Below are positions 13,939 through 23,175 of a stretch of DNA of 52,885 nt, one piece after another (position 1 is the first letter of the stretch; every line of letters starts with the position of its first letter). A model generated the notes under the pieces. That model made no database searches. It was not told the origin of the DNA and worked only from the letters and a program-made list of their open reading frames with translations. Origin of the DNA: Thiotrichaceae bacterium (GTDB lineage Bacteria > Pseudomonadota > Gammaproteobacteria > Thiotrichales > Thiotrichaceae); NCBI GenBank assembly GCA_023144895.1, contig JAGLEV010000061.1, forward strand, positions 1 to 52,885, read 5' to 3'. Both the position numbers and the translations under genes were made by a program.

Positions 13939-14199
13939 GGTATTTCCTTATAAAAATTATTATGATCCATCATATTTTTATTTAATAGCCACTACATAAT
14001 AAGTAATGCATTGGGTAAAGTCCGTCTTGCTCTTTATTACTCAGGCTAGGTAACATAGACTGACTAAAAGTCATCACTCTCTTCATATAATCAATAGCCC
14101 TATAAAGTCGGTACGATCTTTAGGTACTCTTCTATTGTGATTAACGTAGAAGACATCTCCAACCGAAATCTTCTACGCTTCCACTGGTTACATTCTATT

Positions 14200-14445
14200 T
14201 TAGATTAGTAACCCATTCCGCCCTCCTTCTTTGTTAGCATCTCTTTTCGCCCTCTCATAGGATGCTATTTCTTTTTTTAATTTATCAACTTCGATGGCTA
14301 ACAAATGCTTTATATCCATCCCAATAATAAACGGATTAAGTTTTTAAATAAGTATCATCATACTCATTTAGCACATAGGTATAACTCATCAAAAAACAGC
14401 TTGTGCAATACCATCTTCTTCAACCTCAACATTAAATATTTTCAT
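14200..14445 (-). pseudogene. probable decayed small gene with three frameshifts
   Basis: On the minus strand an ATG at 14445 opens M-K-I-F-N-V-E-V-E-E-D-G-I-A-Q-A-V-F and runs into a stop at a run of six T. Removing one base there lets it continue as D-E-L-Y-L-C-A; two more one- or two-base shifts, one in an A run, lead to N-E-Y-D-D-T-Y-L-K and then a clean 46-codon stretch N-P-F-I-I-G-M-D-I-K-H-L-L ... K-K-E-I-A-S-Y-E-R-A-K-R-D-A-N-K ending at 14200. The last 39 codons start with an ATG at 14319 but lack a ribosome-binding site. The whole looks like one ~80-residue protein broken at homopolymers. Family not recognised. Confidence 0.4.
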
Positions 14446-14944
14446 TCGTCTTTCTTTTTTCAATTTTCTGCATTCTCATTACAGATAAAATAACAATGAA
14501 CTTATTAAAGCGTATTATTATCAAAAAAAACAATATAACATTCACTGTTAATAGAGTGCTCCTCGCAACAATAAAACAGTTTTATTTTGGTGGTATAAGC
14601 TTATAAATACTCATTATCACCTTACCTAAGATTTTTACTCACTTTTCTTATATCTATCGATATTTATAGTTATTACTAAGCAACATCTGTGCCAATCTTA
14701 ATTAATTCATGTAAGCCCCTATAAGTCAGCATTCACAAATAAAGAACATTAGCAAGTCGCTCTGATAAGTGGTTCAGTTTGTCCCATTAGAAAATTATGT
14801 AGCGACAAAAAATACCTGTTCGACAACAGAGGTAATCAATCCACCGTTTCCATTGCTTTTGTAAACCACATTACAGAAGGCTCTAAGATTTTGTGATTTT
14901 ACCTTGTTTAGAATAATGACATGCCATCAAGCTTCAGCTAAAAT

Positions 14945-15034
14945 CTAACAGACACTACTGGCACCGATTAACTCCATAGAAGCAATCAATAGAACTAAAA
15001 TCAGAGATTTTGGTTTACTACCTTTGACAACCAT
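14945..15034 (-). CDS. possible 29-residue membrane or signal peptide coupled to the phospholipase gene
   Basis: The phospholipase D gene stops with TAG at 15038-15036 and one base later an ATG opens a 29-codon frame: a basic start (V-V-K-G-S-K-P-K-S), a hydrophobic core L-I-L-V-L-L-I-A-S-M-E-L-I-G-A, and a final S-S-V-C. The spacing suggests translational coupling, and the layout is that of a signal peptide or a single membrane segment. The terminal cysteine just before the stop might be a remnant lipobox of a truncated lipoprotein. It may be a real microprotein, the N-terminal stub of a lost gene, or chance. Confidence 0.3.
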   Translation of the reverse strand: MVVKGSKPKSLILVLLIASMELIGASSVC

Positions 15035-15035
15035 C

Positions 15036-16577
15036 CTACAACTGTGATTCCACAGGTAATATCGACATGAAGCGCATCCAAATACGTTGTGATAATACGG
15101 TGTTAGGCTCTTTAGTATAAAACCTATTATTTGCATAATCTTGCCAAATAATATTATCGCCCTCTAGCTCTAGATGAAAAGCCAGTTTATCGAGATGCTG
15201 ATCAAACCACTGCACAATATGATTAGTAATATCCTTAGAACTAATCATAATTCCAATTTCAGTATTCTCATACAATGAGCGTGGATCCATATTCATTGAG
15301 CCAACATAGAGTTTATTCCTATCAAAACTGACTATTTTGGCATGTAACGCGGCTTTGGCTGGACGGTTGAGTAAACGTCGAGCGCGTTTTAATAAATTAA
15401 CACTCCCTTTCACTGATTTAAATTCATAGAGATGCACCCCCATTCGTAATAAATCCTTTCGATACTTATTATAATGAGCATTAACAATCGTCATATCTGT
15501 AGAAGCATAAGTATTAGTTAAGACTCTAACATTCAACCCTTTATCACATAGTTTTTGGAAATATTGCAAGCCTCGTTGACTAGGAATAAAGTAAGGTGTA
15601 ATAATTAAAATATTATTTTCAGTTTGCTTTACAACGGTATCAAAGCCCTCAATTTCTAACGAGCTACTCAGCCTTTTATCTTTATAATCAATCTTACTGG
15701 GATCATCCTTAATCACTGTTGCCACCGCCCAACGAAAGGGTAAGGTTCCCGTTTTAATTTGCTGGGCTAAGGGAGAAGTATCTAAAACATGAGTAAAGTA
15801 GGCACGTTCTGAATCCTCTTTAAACCAGTATTTTTCATTTTCAAAAGAGGGAGCGGAAAGCGTGGATACTTTAATTGTTTTATAAAAATTCCAATATTGA
15901 TCAAAAGACTTTGACACCTCTTTCGCAATGGGACCAATAGCCAAAACTTCCATACCACTAAATACACGCTCAGCCTCTGCTTCTGAATACTCATTACCTA
16001 TATTTCGACTCCCCACTATCGTTATATCATTATCAATCACCACTAACTTATTGTGCATCCTTCGAGTCACTTTACCCATTTGAAAAATATACTGAAAAAC
16101 TCGGGGTGTTTTACGACTAAAAGGATTAAAAACACGCACTTCAATATTAGGATGTAGATCAAGAGCGGCTAATTTAGCGGTTTGCTGGGAAAGATGAAAA
16201 TCATCTAATAAAACTCGTACTCGTACTCCACGATCGGCTGCCTTTTTTAGAGATTCATAAAATAAAAATCCTGTAAGATCATCTCTCACTATATAATATT
16301 GAACATCAATGCTTTTTTCTGCCTTATTAAACAGCTCTGTACGAGCAGCAAAGGCATCCAAACCACTACCTAATAGCACAAAGCCAGATTTGCCTTTGTG
16401 GTGGTGTAATTGAGATTGGTAGCTTCGTAGTAATTGCGTCTGATCTGCATTTTTTAGGGCATAAGTTGCCTTCCGATCAGGATGCTTTTGCGACCCTGCG
16501 CTACAGCCAGACAGCCACAACAAAACAAGAAGTATAAAAATAGAAAAGATCAAATTATATTGTGAATAGTGAAGCAT
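15036..16577 (-). CDS. phospholipase D family lipoprotein, ClsC/YmdC-like cardiolipin synthase
   Basis: The 513-residue protein has a hydrophobic N-terminus ending in a lipobox (L-S-G-C, about residues 22-25), then two phospholipase D half-domains. The catalytic H-x-K-x4-D motifs are H-N-K-L-V-V-I-D near residue 174 and H-A-K-I-V-S-F-D near residue 409, each followed by the G-S-R-N/G-S-M-N-M-D asparagine segment. The layout resembles E. coli ClsC (YmdC), which makes cardiolipin from phosphatidylethanolamine and phosphatidylglycerol with help of YmdB. No ymdB partner lies next to it. Alternatives are a general phosphatidyltransferase or nuclease of the superfamily, but the lipoprotein anchor and motif spacing favour a lipid substrate. 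It is alone on its strand with 190 bases upstream. Confidence 0.85.
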   Translation of the reverse strand: MLHYSQYNLIFSIFILLVLLWLSGCSAGSQKHPDRKATYALKNADQTQLLRSYQSQLHHHKGKSGFVLLGSGLDAFAARTELFNKAEKSIDVQYYIVRDDLTGFLFYESLKKAADRGVRVRVLLDDFHLSQQTAKLAALDLHPNIEVRVFNPFSRKTPRVFQYIFQMGKVTRRMHNKLVVIDNDITIVGSRNIGNEYSEAEAERVFSGMEVLAIGPIAKEVSKSFDQYWNFYKTIKVSTLSAPSFENEKYWFKEDSERAYFTHVLDTSPLAQQIKTGTLPFRWAVATVIKDDPSKIDYKDKRLSSSLEIEGFDTVVKQTENNILIITPYFIPSQRGLQYFQKLCDKGLNVRVLTNTYASTDMTIVNAHYNKYRKDLLRMGVHLYEFKSVKGSVNLLKRARRLLNRPAKAALHAKIVSFDRNKLYVGSMNMDPRSLYENTEIGIMISSKDITNHIVQWFDQHLDKLAFHLELEGDNIIWQDYANNRFYTKEPNTVLSQRIWMRFMSILPVESQL

Positions 16578-18740: not shown

Positions 18741-20420
18741 ATGACTAAACTCTCTAAAAAATATGCCTATTTATCCCAAGCAGAACAAGCAGGGATTATT
18801 ACGCCAAAAACACTATTACTACATGAGGCGAATGATGCTGAGGTTCAGCACTTTATTAAGACCTGTGATAGTGACAGCCGTTTTATTATACGGAGTATGC
18901 AAAGTGCAGAAGATACACACCACCAGTCTTATGCTGGGCATTTTTGGAGCTCTTCAGCAGTTCACCCTAATGAAGTCATTGCAACCATTTCTCTCGCTCA
19001 AAAAGAAAATCATCAGCGACTAAAACAACTCAATATCAATGAGCCACCACAGCTGATGTTGCAAGAGTATATTGAGCACAATATTGGTGGTGTTCTGTTT
19101 AGTCCATGGAGTTTTTTTGCTAATTATTGCTTTATTGAATACTCTACTCATAGCGTACAACAGGCTGTTGAAGGTAAAGCGACTCCCGCTGTTATCAGCA
19201 TTAAAGAAGGTTACCCATCGCCACTAGCACTGGATGAAAAATTAAGTTTTTTACTAGAATCATTGCGTTTATTAGTACAGAAATTACAGACTATCTTTAA
19301 TTTTCCTATTGATAGCGAGTGGGTTTATAGCGAGAAAAAAAAATCAATCCTATTATTACAAGTGCGCCCCCAAACACGCTTAGTCGGTGCCTTATTCAAT
19401 GCAACACCTGAACAATACCAGCAGTTAAAATTACCTGCTGGTGATTGGCAATATACGGCTTTATCAGAAAGTTTAGGCAAGCTTTCTCCACTATCTTTTA
19501 GTCTACTGGAACAGCTTTATGACAATTCAAGAGTCAGTTTACAATCATTAGGTTATCAAGCCAAACAGGTTGATTTTATCACTCGACTACCTGATGGCAG
19601 TATTTTAGTTGACCCCGTATTAGAAAAGCGTTTTTATGCTCCCACAACTTTTGGTGGATTTTGGAAGAGTTTTAAAGCACCACAGTGGCAACAAAAAATC
19701 AAAGATTTATTAGCAACTCTTAACCTTGATAAGAATTTTTCTTACACGCAATTATCACAATATTTTCAATACTGGATCATTGCGAATACACTAAGCAATG
19801 GTCAGGGCAGAGAGGAGAATAAACCTCATGCGTATGAATTATCTTGGCAACAAAAATTAGCCCCTCCCACTATTCATACTAATGATGATTCATGGGATAT
19901 ATTAAATCAACAGCTTAAACAGCTATTCTTTTTTGAACTGGAAAAGCTCAAGCAACAAATCACAGAGCCTCAGCAAGTCTTGTTATCTTGGCAAGATAGC
20001 TTACTCAATAAAACAGTTTCTATGATAGAGGAGCAACAGGCTACATCAATGGCGATATATGATTATAGTTTGTGGGGTATTGGATTAAGCAACACTGCAA
20101 TGCAGTCTATTGGTGCAAAAAAGAAAACATCAGGAAGGCTTTTTATTGTCCAAAATCCAAGCTATTTTCAAAAGGAAATCCCTGTTGAATCAATATTAAT
20201 AGCCCCCTACTTTGATAATCAGTGGGTACAAAGTATTCCTAAGCTCAATGGAATTATTGTGACACAAGGAGGGCATTTATCACATTCCGCTATTGTGGCG
20301 CGGGAGTCGGGTATTCCTTATTTTATTGGTCAATATGATAATACAGGTGAATTAAAGCAAGGTGACTGGGTGAGTTTGTCATTGTTAGGAGCTTTGTCTA
20401 TACCGAGTACAACAAGGTAA
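18741..20420 (+). CDS. ATP-grasp/PEP-utilizing phosphotransferase of the PEP synthase / rifampin phosphotransferase type
   Basis: Three parts are visible in 559 residues. Residues 1-215 form a PEP-synthase-type ATP-grasp domain: I-I-R-S-M-Q-S-A-E-D, S-Y-A-G-H-F, L-Q-E-Y-I-E-H-N-I-G-G-V-L-F-S and the closing D-S-E-W-V-Y...L-L-L-Q-V-R-P-Q-T. Residues about 216-470 are an unassigned helical region. Residues about 480-555 form the swivelling phospho-histidine domain with G510-G-H-L-S-H515-S-A-I-V-A-R-E and H515 as the likely carrier. The order ATP domain, middle domain, His domain matches rifampin phosphotransferases and differs from PEP synthase, which has a C-terminal PEP/pyruvate barrel that is missing here. 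The protein is much shorter than typical Rph (about 860). It should transfer a phosphate from ATP through His515 to an unknown substrate. It is co-transcribed with the membrane rhodanese. Confidence 0.75.
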   Translation: MTKLSKKYAYLSQAEQAGIITPKTLLLHEANDAEVQHFIKTCDSDSRFIIRSMQSAEDTHHQSYAGHFWSSSAVHPNEVIATISLAQKENHQRLKQLNINEPPQLMLQEYIEHNIGGVLFSPWSFFANYCFIEYSTHSVQQAVEGKATPAVISIKEGYPSPLALDEKLSFLLESLRLLVQKLQTIFNFPIDSEWVYSEKKKSILLLQVRPQTRLVGALFNATPEQYQQLKLPAGDWQYTALSESLGKLSPLSFSLLEQLYDNSRVSLQSLGYQAKQVDFITRLPDGSILVDPVLEKRFYAPTTFGGFWKSFKAPQWQQKIKDLLATLNLDKNFSYTQLSQYFQYWIIANTLSNGQGREENKPHAYELSWQQKLAPPTIHTNDDSWDILNQQLKQLFFFELEKLKQQITEPQQVLLSWQDSLLNKTVSMIEEQQATSMAIYDYSLWGIGLSNTAMQSIGAKKKTSGRLFIVQNPSYFQKEIPVESILIAPYFDNQWVQSIPKLNGIIVTQGGHLSHSAIVARESGIPYFIGQYDNTGELKQGDWVSLSLLGALSIPSTTR

Positions 20421-20731
20421 TAGGCTTATCAGTCGTTCCTGTTTTAATTATAAAGCAAGATAATTGCAATCTCTTAGCAAGAGAAAATCAAAACTGTAGA
20501 CTTAAATAGTCATTAATTTATTTTATAGACACTATAAGACAAGAGTTGCTAGCATTATCTCATCACTTTTTACAAATCTTATCAGATAGAGCTAATGATA
20601 TTTCTGAGTGAATATGAGTTCAAATATTCCATCTATCCTTAAAAACATCACGTCCAACGAATCTCATTAACCTATCTGGTGAAAAAATCATTACTATTAA
20701 TAGAATACAGCGATAAAGAGACTAGGGCTTT
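20421..20731. other. 311-bp gap upstream of the PcfJ-like pair
   Basis: No gene is seen. The last ~110 bases (from about 20622) are repeated before the second PcfJ-like gene (from about 21964), so they belong to the duplicated unit and probably carry the promoter. The left ~200 bases are AT-rich with a small hairpin (TCTCTT-AGC-AAGAGA) and no clear signal. Confidence 0.5.
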
Positions 20732-21931
20732 ATGATTCATTATTCAGACGAAAACGACCTAATCATAGACTATTCTAAAATCATTGGTTACCCCTGTTTA
20801 CTCACAGTCACATCATGGGAAAAAGGCATAACATGGAAAAGTGTTGCTGGTGAAGAAAGAGTTTTTCAAAAAAATTATCTAGACGAGACAGGAGTAGCAC
20901 TGCACCAAACTTACAATGGTAATAAACAGAACAAATGGTTAAACACTATTCCAAAAGACTTACTTAGTATGTTGCTGGATTATGAAAAAAATTACTTCTA
21001 CTCAGCCTATCCATTACTTTATTTATTAAGTCATCACCAAAATGCCATTGACTTATTTAAAAGCAGCCAGGTGCTGATGGCTATTCTTATGTATTCAGCA
21101 GAAAAAAACAACTGGAATGAAGAATATGTGGTTAATTTATTAAATGGAAAAAGAGTTGATATTATTGATGCCTGTGGATTACCTAGAAGAAAGTCAACAT
21201 TAAAAACACTTAATAAAATTGAGGGTATTTATCTTTCACCTTTAGAATATAATGCTATTAAAATAGTTTTATCACTTCCAAACGCTCACTTAATTAATCA
21301 CTTGAACTCTATTGATATAGGATTAATTTATTTAATAGCAAACCACAATGAATTTATAGCTTCTTCATTGATAAGTCGTTATCACAAAGAGTGGCTAGAT
21401 ATTGGGTTTAGATATATGTATATTGATACTAAAAGGATGCTTGGACGAGCAGGTAGCCGACACTTAAAAAAGTGTGCAACGCTTGATGAATTAAAAAAAA
21501 TACATAAAAAATGCATCATTAAACTAAATGAAGAGAATAAAAAGAAGAGAGAGAAAATAAAAAAGGAGATGCATGAGAGGCATGAGAGGAATAAAAAGAA
21601 TAATGAAATAAATAAAAAAAATAATGGAAAAGTCTATTTTTCTCAGCCCCCAGTTAAAGGAAATAAATATATAATCCCAATAACTAATAGTCATGATTTG
21701 ATGGATGAAGGGATAGATCAACGTCATTGTGTCGCTAGTTATCAGGATGAGATAGTTAACGGTAAAAGCTATATTTATAAAGTCTTAGAGCCAGAGAGAG
21801 CAACACTGCAAATTCTAATCTTAGGTAACAATAAATATAGAAGAGCTCAACTTAAATTGTCTTGTAATCAATCGCCATCAAAAGAAACAGTACAAATGGT
21901 TGAACAATGGATGAAAAAAGCATTCGAGTGA
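20732..21931 (+). CDS. PcfJ-like protein, paralog 1
   Basis: The 399-residue protein ends in a PcfJ-like domain: K-Y-I-I-P-I-T-N-S-H-D-L-M-D-E-G-I, then R-H-C-V-A-S-Y-Q-D-E-I-V-N-G near residue 330, Y-K-V-L-E-P-E-R-A-T-L-Q-I-L and A-Q-L-K-L-S-C-N-Q-S-P-S. The H-C and Y residues and the x-x-G-x-x-I-Y strand are hallmarks of the family (PF14284), first named from the conjugative plasmid pCF10 and of unknown function. The N-terminal ~250 residues are helical and not recognised. Compared with paralog 2 it has an extra K/E/N-rich stretch of about 33 residues just before the domain (encoded near 21520-21630), probably a charged helix. It is not next to transfer genes. Confidence 0.75.
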   Translation: MIHYSDENDLIIDYSKIIGYPCLLTVTSWEKGITWKSVAGEERVFQKNYLDETGVALHQTYNGNKQNKWLNTIPKDLLSMLLDYEKNYFYSAYPLLYLLSHHQNAIDLFKSSQVLMAILMYSAEKNNWNEEYVVNLLNGKRVDIIDACGLPRRKSTLKTLNKIEGIYLSPLEYNAIKIVLSLPNAHLINHLNSIDIGLIYLIANHNEFIASSLISRYHKEWLDIGFRYMYIDTKRMLGRAGSRHLKKCATLDELKKIHKKCIIKLNEENKKKREKIKKEMHERHERNKKNNEINKKNNGKVYFSQPPVKGNKYIIPITNSHDLMDEGIDQRHCVASYQDEIVNGKSYIYKVLEPERATLQILILGNNKYRRAQLKLSCNQSPSKETVQMVEQWMKKAFE

Positions 21932-22074
21932 CTTTCCAGTCATTCTCGTTGCCTTTGTAAATCGATATTCCACTTATCCTTAAAAACATCACGTCCAGCG
22001 AGTCTCATTAGCCTATCTGGTCAAAAAATCATTACTATTAAATATAGAATACAACGATAAAACACTAGGGCTTT

Positions 22075-23175
22075 ATGATTCATAATTCAGAAAAAAACGA
22101 CTTAATCATAGACTATTCTAAGGTCATTGGTTACCCCTGTTTACTCAAAATCACACCATGGGAAAAAGGCATAACATGGACAAGCATTGCTGGTCAAGAA
22201 AGAGTTATTCAAAAAAATTATCTAGACGAGACAGGATTAACACTGCACCAAACTTACAATGATAATAAAGAGAACAACTGGTTAAGAGCTATTCCAAAAG
22301 ACTTACTTGGTAAGTTGCTGGATTATGAAAAAAAGTACTTCTTCCCAGTTTATCCATTACTTTGTTTATTAAGTAACCATCAGAGTGCCATTGACTTATT
22401 TAAAAGGAATCATCTGCTGATGGCTATTCTTATGTATTCAGCAAAAGTAAATAACTGGAATGAAGAGTATGTGGTTAATTTATTAAATGGAAAAAGAATT
22501 GATCTTATTAATGCCTGCGGGTTACCTAGAAGAGAGTCGACATTAAAAACACTTGATAAAATTAGGGGTGTTTCTCTTACACCTTTAGAGTATCTTACTA
22601 TTAAAAATGTTTTATCACTTCCAAACGCTGACTTAATTAATAATTTTCGATATGTCGATATAAAGTTAATTTATTTAATAGAAGAGCATAACGATTTATT
22701 AACTAAATCATTAATGCAAAGCTATCACAAAGAATGGTCAGTATTTCAGTTTAAAAAAATATATTTCGATACTACAATAATGCTTGGGCGAGCAGCCAAT
22801 CCACAATTAATAAAGTGCTTAACTATTAGTGCATTAGAAAAAATACATGAAAGGTGGACTATTAAAAGAGATAAAAAAGTATATTTTCCTCAGCCCCCCA
22901 TTAAAGGAAGTAAATATATAATTCCAATAACTAATAGTCATGAATTGATAGATGAAGGGAGAGCTCAACATCATTGTGTCGCTGGTTACAAGGATGAGAT
23001 AGTTAATGGTAGAAGCTATATTTATAAAGTCTTAGAGCCAGAGAGAGGAACACTACAAGTTCTAATTTTGGCTAACAATAAATACGCAAGAGCTCAATTT
23101 AAATTGTCTTGCCATCAAAGCCCATCAAAAGAAACAATACGAATAATTGACCAATGGATTAACGGGAACGACTAG
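22075..23175 (+). CDS. PcfJ-like protein, paralog 2
   Basis: The 366-residue protein is closely similar to its upstream neighbour along its whole length, from the shared Y-S-K-V-I-G-Y-P-C-L-L start to the C-terminal domain with H-H-C-V-A-G-Y-K-D-E-I-V-N-G (near residue 298), Y-K-V-L-E-P-E-R-G-T-L-Q-V-L and K-L-S-C-H-Q-S-P-S. It lacks the charged insert of paralog 1. Both copies keep the invariant His-Cys pair and the tyrosine of the domain, so both look intact. The upstream region is duplicated too, so each copy can be transcribed on its own. It is followed by ppa with a gap of about 100 bases. Function is unknown. Confidence 0.75.
   Translation: MIHNSEKNDLIIDYSKVIGYPCLLKITPWEKGITWTSIAGQERVIQKNYLDETGLTLHQTYNDNKENNWLRAIPKDLLGKLLDYEKKYFFPVYPLLCLLSNHQSAIDLFKRNHLLMAILMYSAKVNNWNEEYVVNLLNGKRIDLINACGLPRRESTLKTLDKIRGVSLTPLEYLTIKNVLSLPNADLINNFRYVDIKLIYLIEEHNDLLTKSLMQSYHKEWSVFQFKKIYFDTTIMLGRAANPQLIKCLTISALEKIHERWTIKRDKKVYFPQPPIKGSKYIIPITNSHELIDEGRAQHHCVAGYKDEIVNGRSYIYKVLEPERGTLQVLILANNKYARAQFKLSCHQSPSKETIRIIDQWINGND

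Follow-up and report, generated by a model that had tools for sequence, protein, structure and literature searches.

Two neighbouring genes of a Thiotrichaceae bacterium encode proteins with a PcfJ-like domain, and the locus raises the question of how the second gene arose, how long ago, and whether selection has since kept two diverged forms. The genes lie head to tail on the plus strand of a contig of 52,885 nucleotides (JAGLEV010000061.1, assembly GCA_023144895.1), the whole of which is referred to here as the window, and both open reading frames are complete and exceed the curated cut-off of 25 bits of the Pfam PcfJ model (PF14284; Table 1). Direct repeats between the copies extend over 300 nt at 90% and 299 nt at 86% identity, and the proteins are 68% identical. 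The repeated unit begins at 20624 and 21965, ~110 bp 5′ of each start codon, with a block of 77 nt at 92% (20624-20700 and 21965-22041) from which similarity, interrupted by small gaps, runs on as far as both start codons, and the unit ends with the gene; the DNA comparison of the flanks of both copies found no similarity outside this unit. A chance origin of the likeness between the copies was excluded, and the tandem duplication of gene and upstream region that had been proposed at 20622-23175 was borne out by the direct repeats, including the ~110-bp upstream stretch. Promoter-like sites around the pair were in no excess over shuffled sequence (within about one standard deviation). The pair is flanked by a gene for a PEP-utilising-domain protein on one side and an inorganic pyrophosphatase gene on the other.

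Table 1. Coordinates of the tandem PcfJ pair and its parts (positions of the window).
Feature	Position	Strand	Basis
Upstream region, copy 1	20624..20731	+	Direct repeat of 77 nt (92%), followed up to the ATG by similar sequence broken by small gaps; recurs before copy 2
Copy 1, PcfJ-domain gene, 399 aa	20732..21931	+	ORF; PF14284 9.8e-13, 48.6 bits
Most divergent block, copy 1 (codons 185-275 of the alignment, with the insert)	21287..21652	+	Synonymous divergence scan
32-codon Lys/Glu/Asn-rich insert, copy 1 only (relative to copy 2)	21533..21628	+	Protein alignment; 9-bp and 21-bp tandem units
Upstream region, copy 2	21965..22074	+	Repeat of 20624-20731
Copy 2, PcfJ-domain gene, 366 aa	22075..23175	+	ORF; PF14284 4.1e-10, 40.1 bits
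Most divergent block, copy 2 (codons 186-275)	22630..22899	+	Synonymous divergence scan
C-terminal PcfJ core, copy 2 (residues 273-366), beta-alpha-alpha-beta-beta-beta-alpha	22891..23172	+	Predicted model m1a02b318e3c5, pLDDT ~90

The length difference between the copies comes almost wholly from a Lys/Glu/Asn-rich insert at residues 268-299 of copy 1, whose extent in the alignment is slightly smaller than the ~33 codons first suggested, 33 being the net difference in length. The insert is made of short repeats, and these tandem units make slippage its likely origin. In the domain itself, the H-C motif and tyrosine are retained as first noted (H332/C333/Y337 in copy 1; H300/C301/Y305 in copy 2), and the E-G, H-C, Y, and Q positions of the core are present in both copies (E294, G295, H300, C301, Y305, and Q341 in copy 2 numbering). 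An alignment of 31 viral domains, drawn from 47 non-redundant ones after 16 had been dropped whose part after the H-C motif was seemingly interrupted or off-register, has H258, E294, G295, H300, C301, and Q341 invariant and V302, Y305, and I316 nearly so, and nearly all conserved PcfJ positions are kept by both copies. Departures occur at two positions that are sequence trends of the subfamily rather than curated criteria: in an H-D pair before the core, the histidine is kept and the aspartate (present in 10 of 11 other subfamily members) is replaced by lysine in copy 1 and glutamate in copy 2, and the asparagine that follows the conserved glutamine in copy 1 and all 11 other members is a histidine in copy 2.

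The structure of copy 2 was modelled from 36 sequences, the 31 viral domains among them, with a mean pLDDT of 76, with values of ~90 in the C-terminal core and below 50 at residues 33-66 and 223-241, and the predicted chain begins with beta strands, passes into several short helices, and finishes with the core as given in Table 1. The N-terminal half of GNAT acetyltransferases has the same order of elements as this predicted core (GNAT topology). When the core was aligned with VIA-align, all 50 rows listed were acetyltransferases by title and were matched in their N-terminal part, the best being 8gxj_B (Z 6.4, rmsd 3.3 over 90 residues, 13% identity), which the tool rates as possibly a common arrangement; residues 277-365 were really covered, and the candidates were solely those of Foldseek, so the absence of non-GNAT folds among them is uninformative. 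Foldseek itself returned nothing from the PDB at E 0.001 (best 1.2, with GNATs mainly at the top) and matched viral PcfJ models at 3.7e-7, a sequence search of solved structures gave no match up to E 1, and a profile comparison by hhalign with a GNAT set of only four sequences gave a probability of 0.1. The C-terminal half of GNAT proteins is absent; the last helix of the copy 2 model stops at residue 362, four residues before the end of the protein (366 aa). Most PcfJ domains close their last strand with Q-x-R-G-x-x-N, a sequence resembling the GNAT CoA motif; at this place the two copies in the window have Q-x-K-L. The likeness of the predicted PcfJ core to the N-terminal half of GNAT acetyltransferases is thus a lead rather than a case of membership, and is without sequence support. 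A bolder version, which we regard as a long shot, is that the PcfJ domain is kin to the GNAT fold but half as long, with an H-C / Y / Q site of different chemistry or one completed by the pairing of partners, and that the duplicated pair is splitting its recognition part, perhaps as a heteromer.

Divergence between the copies gives a measure of their age. By the NG86 method, copy 1 and copy 2 differ by a dN of 0.18 and a dS of 0.25, with a dN/dS of 0.72 (bootstrap 0.53-1.03), whereas three pairs of single-copy relatives in the sister genus each have a dN/dS of 0.15 at a dS of 0.41-0.47. As dS between the copies is lower than among these relatives, the duplication is not old, contrary to what the many point changes had suggested, and the substitution counts show it to be fairly recent and later than the species splits in the sister genus, provided that synonymous rates are alike. 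Amino-acid change relative to synonymous change has been ~5 times faster between the copies than in the single-copy relatives, and an old, strongly maintained duplication was rejected on both measures.

Among the genomes scanned (63 of the order and 398 of the phylum), a tandem PcfJ pair occurs only here. The pair is the sole PcfJ match in its own genome (2.6 Mb, 103 contigs), none of five congeners has a close relative of it, and one congener carries a distant PcfJ gene of 513 aa. With copy 2 as the query, 8 of the 63 genomes of the order matched, its own included; four of nine genomes of the genus g3 contain one closer relative each, with 44-50% identity over the main stretches, and three of these were found again in MAGs labelled Cocleimonas or Leucothrix, the former a member of Thiotrichaceae. 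With the Pfam model, matches came from 14 of the 63 genomes at order level and from 13 of the 398 at phylum level (the source genome counted in both), with a single match in each apart from the source genome and one other (G024, two genes on different contigs). The many scattered copies that would have spoken against the original prediction were therefore not seen, and transposition or wide dispersal was rejected, there being two PcfJ genes in the genome. Identity between the two copies (68%) far exceeds that to their next relatives (~45%). The adjoining pyrophosphatase gene is present in all five congeners, and in the stretches fetched around it no other gene of the window was found except for a weak rhodanese match of 47 residues in G005; without conserved synteny there, no empty site is available for dating the insertion. 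The relative in genome G023 (L026 1-640) has lost its open frame to a frameshift and to stops preceding it, a defect that may stem from an assembly fault. Copy 2 had no match among phage records by tblastn, nor did the pair or its nearest relatives yield any when used as queries against viral contigs, while scans with other queries, mostly the PcfJ domain alone, gave 64 loci, two of which are the same contig. On some of the viral contigs (L126-L148), the PcfJ core lies inside frames of ~570-1350 aa and contains a near-constant E-G-E-T-M-G-H-C-V-G stretch.

The genes of the window appear chromosomal and of housekeeping types, nine ORFs having been scanned with profiles and the rest judged by eye, and on the same basis no transfer or relaxase gene was recognised near the pair, in agreement with the original prediction. 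Upstream, a 559-aa protein (18741-20420, plus strand) that combines a remnant of PPDK_N with a PEP-utilising mobile domain at its C-terminus directly follows a 404-aa rhodanese-domain protein and reaches the cut-off of none of the NCBIfam models listed for it. A phospholipase-D-like protein with a lipoprotein-like start is encoded at 15036-16577 on the minus strand; in its second half, DISARM DrmC models match at 2.8e-23 and cardiolipin synthases score below the cut-off. It is adjoined by ~1.1 kb (13939-15035) without an ORF of 80 aa, at a G+C content of 33%.

The retention of two forms had been likened to that of defence or counter-defence genes. Several relatives do lie beside such genes: AbiEi/AbiEii and a type II Zorya system in G022; an island in G115 (L055 7051-16163) with AbiEi/AbiEii, an HTH antidote-like gene, PcfJ, a DUF262-type gene (identified by eye and by a PADLOC HEC-05 match), and a type I methyltransferase; PDC-S26 and WYL in G643; DISARM genes in G168; type I R-M on a Marinomonas plasmid; and AbiE with a Lamassu-like gene on a Pantoea plasmid. 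The disrupted relative of G023 adjoins a T5orf172 gene matching PDC-S57. Defence islands, however, attract unrelated genes too. The comparison covered 128 neighbour proteins of 17 PcfJ loci and 128 proteins of 14 out of 20 random 11-kb regions fetched from genomes carrying PcfJ; at E 1e-40, PADLOC models were matched at about 6 of 17 loci, one of them through a HerA ATPase that may be housekeeping (L075), as against 1-2 of 14 random regions, in one or two of which type I R-M and bSEFIR matches occurred, and the excess is not significant (Fisher p 0.13-0.41 for 5-7 of 17 vs. 2 of 14). The 17 exclude the Thiotrichaceae type of 500 aa, L077 (a repeat of L076), and L071 and L080, whose PcfJ gene was unresolved by profile. 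RapA in L026 was scored as non-defence, and in GC-rich loci such as L057, L070, L074, and L075 the mechanical ORF calling may include false genes, the PcfJ start in L070 being likely too far upstream. Neither copy matched any PADLOC family, and no defence gene was recognised around the pair in the window, where most ORFs were judged by eye. The defence analogy thus holds for the company of several relatives and not for an excess over random regions or for the window, and a role of the pair in conflict with phages or plasmids is no more than possible.

How the two copies came to differ can be read in several ways. If one copy suffices, the other may simply be drifting towards loss without any new role, which would suit the dN/dS of 0.72 with its upper bound of 1.03, the histidine of copy 2 at the otherwise invariant asparagine, the untidy repeat insert of copy 1, and the disrupted relative in G023; we consider this unlikely, since neither copy has a stop or frameshift although free drift predicts a stop in ~99.8-99.9% of branches (0.07-0.23% of simulated branches lacked one, ~1e-3 per copy), and since almost none of the conserved PcfJ positions has changed in either copy. 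Private changes number 30 and 20 in the two copies, and as this difference in rate is not significant (p 0.20), it is a poor fit to a single idle copy. The open frames, which had been noted from the start, therefore lend weight to the earlier view that selection has kept two diverged forms, against which stand the ratio of 0.72 as compared with 0.15, the lost asparagine, and the disrupted relative; a dN/dS near 1 with disabling changes in relatives, which would have undone that view, is approached by these values. Constraint on the pair is relaxed or altered, and maintenance by selection is uncertain.

Divergence is also unevenly spread along the genes. Synonymous divergence peaks at codons 185-275, just before the PcfJ domain (0.41 vs. 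0.14 elsewhere; scan permutation p 0.026), and amounts to 0.07 in codons 1-100, 0.20 in codons 101-190 and 268-366, and 0.42 in codons 191-267, where the windows 1-100 and 190-267 were picked after the data had been seen and the scan permutation is the fair test. Diversifying selection on two kept forms, in the style of defence and counter-defence genes and with the helical part before the core as a variable recognition part, could produce such a concentration, and dN is higher than dS over codons 1-100 (0.117 vs. 0.071, p 0.47, not significant); the conflict genes near relatives point the same way, among them the sole AbiEii gene in G022, ~60 bp away from PcfJ, and that in G115, at a distance of ~930 bp. 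We hold it to be rather improbable, as none of the codon windows examined has a significant dN > dS, the neighbourhood evidence is as described above, and synonymous divergence is likewise highest in codons 185-275, a sign of recombination more than of selection on the protein only. The patchiness can fairly be ascribed to recombination or gene conversion, and an extreme form of this reading, in which the middle block or the whole of one copy came as a second allele from a diverged strain instead of diverging in place, has little in its favour beyond these block values, as no donor was found among the genomes searched and the copies remain mutually nearest.

The explanation that we tentatively prefer, at somewhat less than even confidence, is that a single-copy PcfJ gene was duplicated in place with its upstream region, after which constraint was partly released and the ends were patched by gene conversion or recombination. 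The ancestral gene would have been a single-copy accessory member of the family on a Thiotrichaceae chromosome. Its duplication together with the ~110-bp region is shown by the repeats, and it was followed by faster amino-acid change in frames that stayed open, with the ends remaining alike, the stretch before the PcfJ domain becoming most different, and copy 1 probably gaining its charged insert by slippage. In the predicted protein, the core that follows the N-terminal beta part and the run of short helices may hold a site of catalysis or ligand binding (E-G, H-C, Y, R, T, and Q), and partner choice may lie with the helical part, in which case the recognition ranges of the copies may be drifting apart. 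The amino-acid excess could equally be due to diversifying selection. Our guess at the likeliest role is that of an accessory gene in conflict with phages or plasmids, a guess prompted by the several relatives among conflict genes, which the random-region control did not confirm.

The pair is a genuine and rather young tandem duplication in a known, uncharacterised family, whose domain is widespread in phages, plasmids, and bacterial chromosomes and for which no function was found in the literature as far as titles and abstract openings tell. A duplication by itself is ordinary, and the value of this one is as a natural comparison of which positions may change and which may not, while the conserved residues name targets for mutation. 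The name PcfJ derives from the enterococcal plasmid pCF10, and the plasmid members examined have 480-648 aa, a different N-terminal part, and in several cases neighbouring traD, relaxase, or topoisomerase genes, whereas the pair is chromosomal, tandem, and without a recognised transfer gene nearby. Individual plasmid genes (L085, L086, L087, and L088) lie by traD, MobP2 relaxase, topoisomerase, or zincin-like genes. Closer in length and in full-length similarity are orphan chromosomal PcfJ genes of ~370-435 aa (Cocleimonas/Leucothrix MAGs, G115, G122, G386, G723, G643, G662, and G593), which unlike the pair are single copies, mostly in unrelated gene neighbourhoods. Phage PcfJ-like proteins (PHROGs 3169, 8470, 16315, and 7484; Enterococcus, Bacillus, and Brevibacillus phages) share the C-terminal core and predicted fold with the pair, but their N-terminal part cannot be aligned to it by sequence. 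What the family and the pair have in common is the C-terminal domain above the PF14284 cut-off with its E-G, H-C, Y, and Q positions. GNAT acetyltransferases, finally, resemble the predicted core in the order of their N-terminal half, the PcfJ protein stopping where their C-terminal half would begin, and if the GNAT-like model is right, it provides a testable enzyme or ligand-binding hypothesis for the PcfJ domain.
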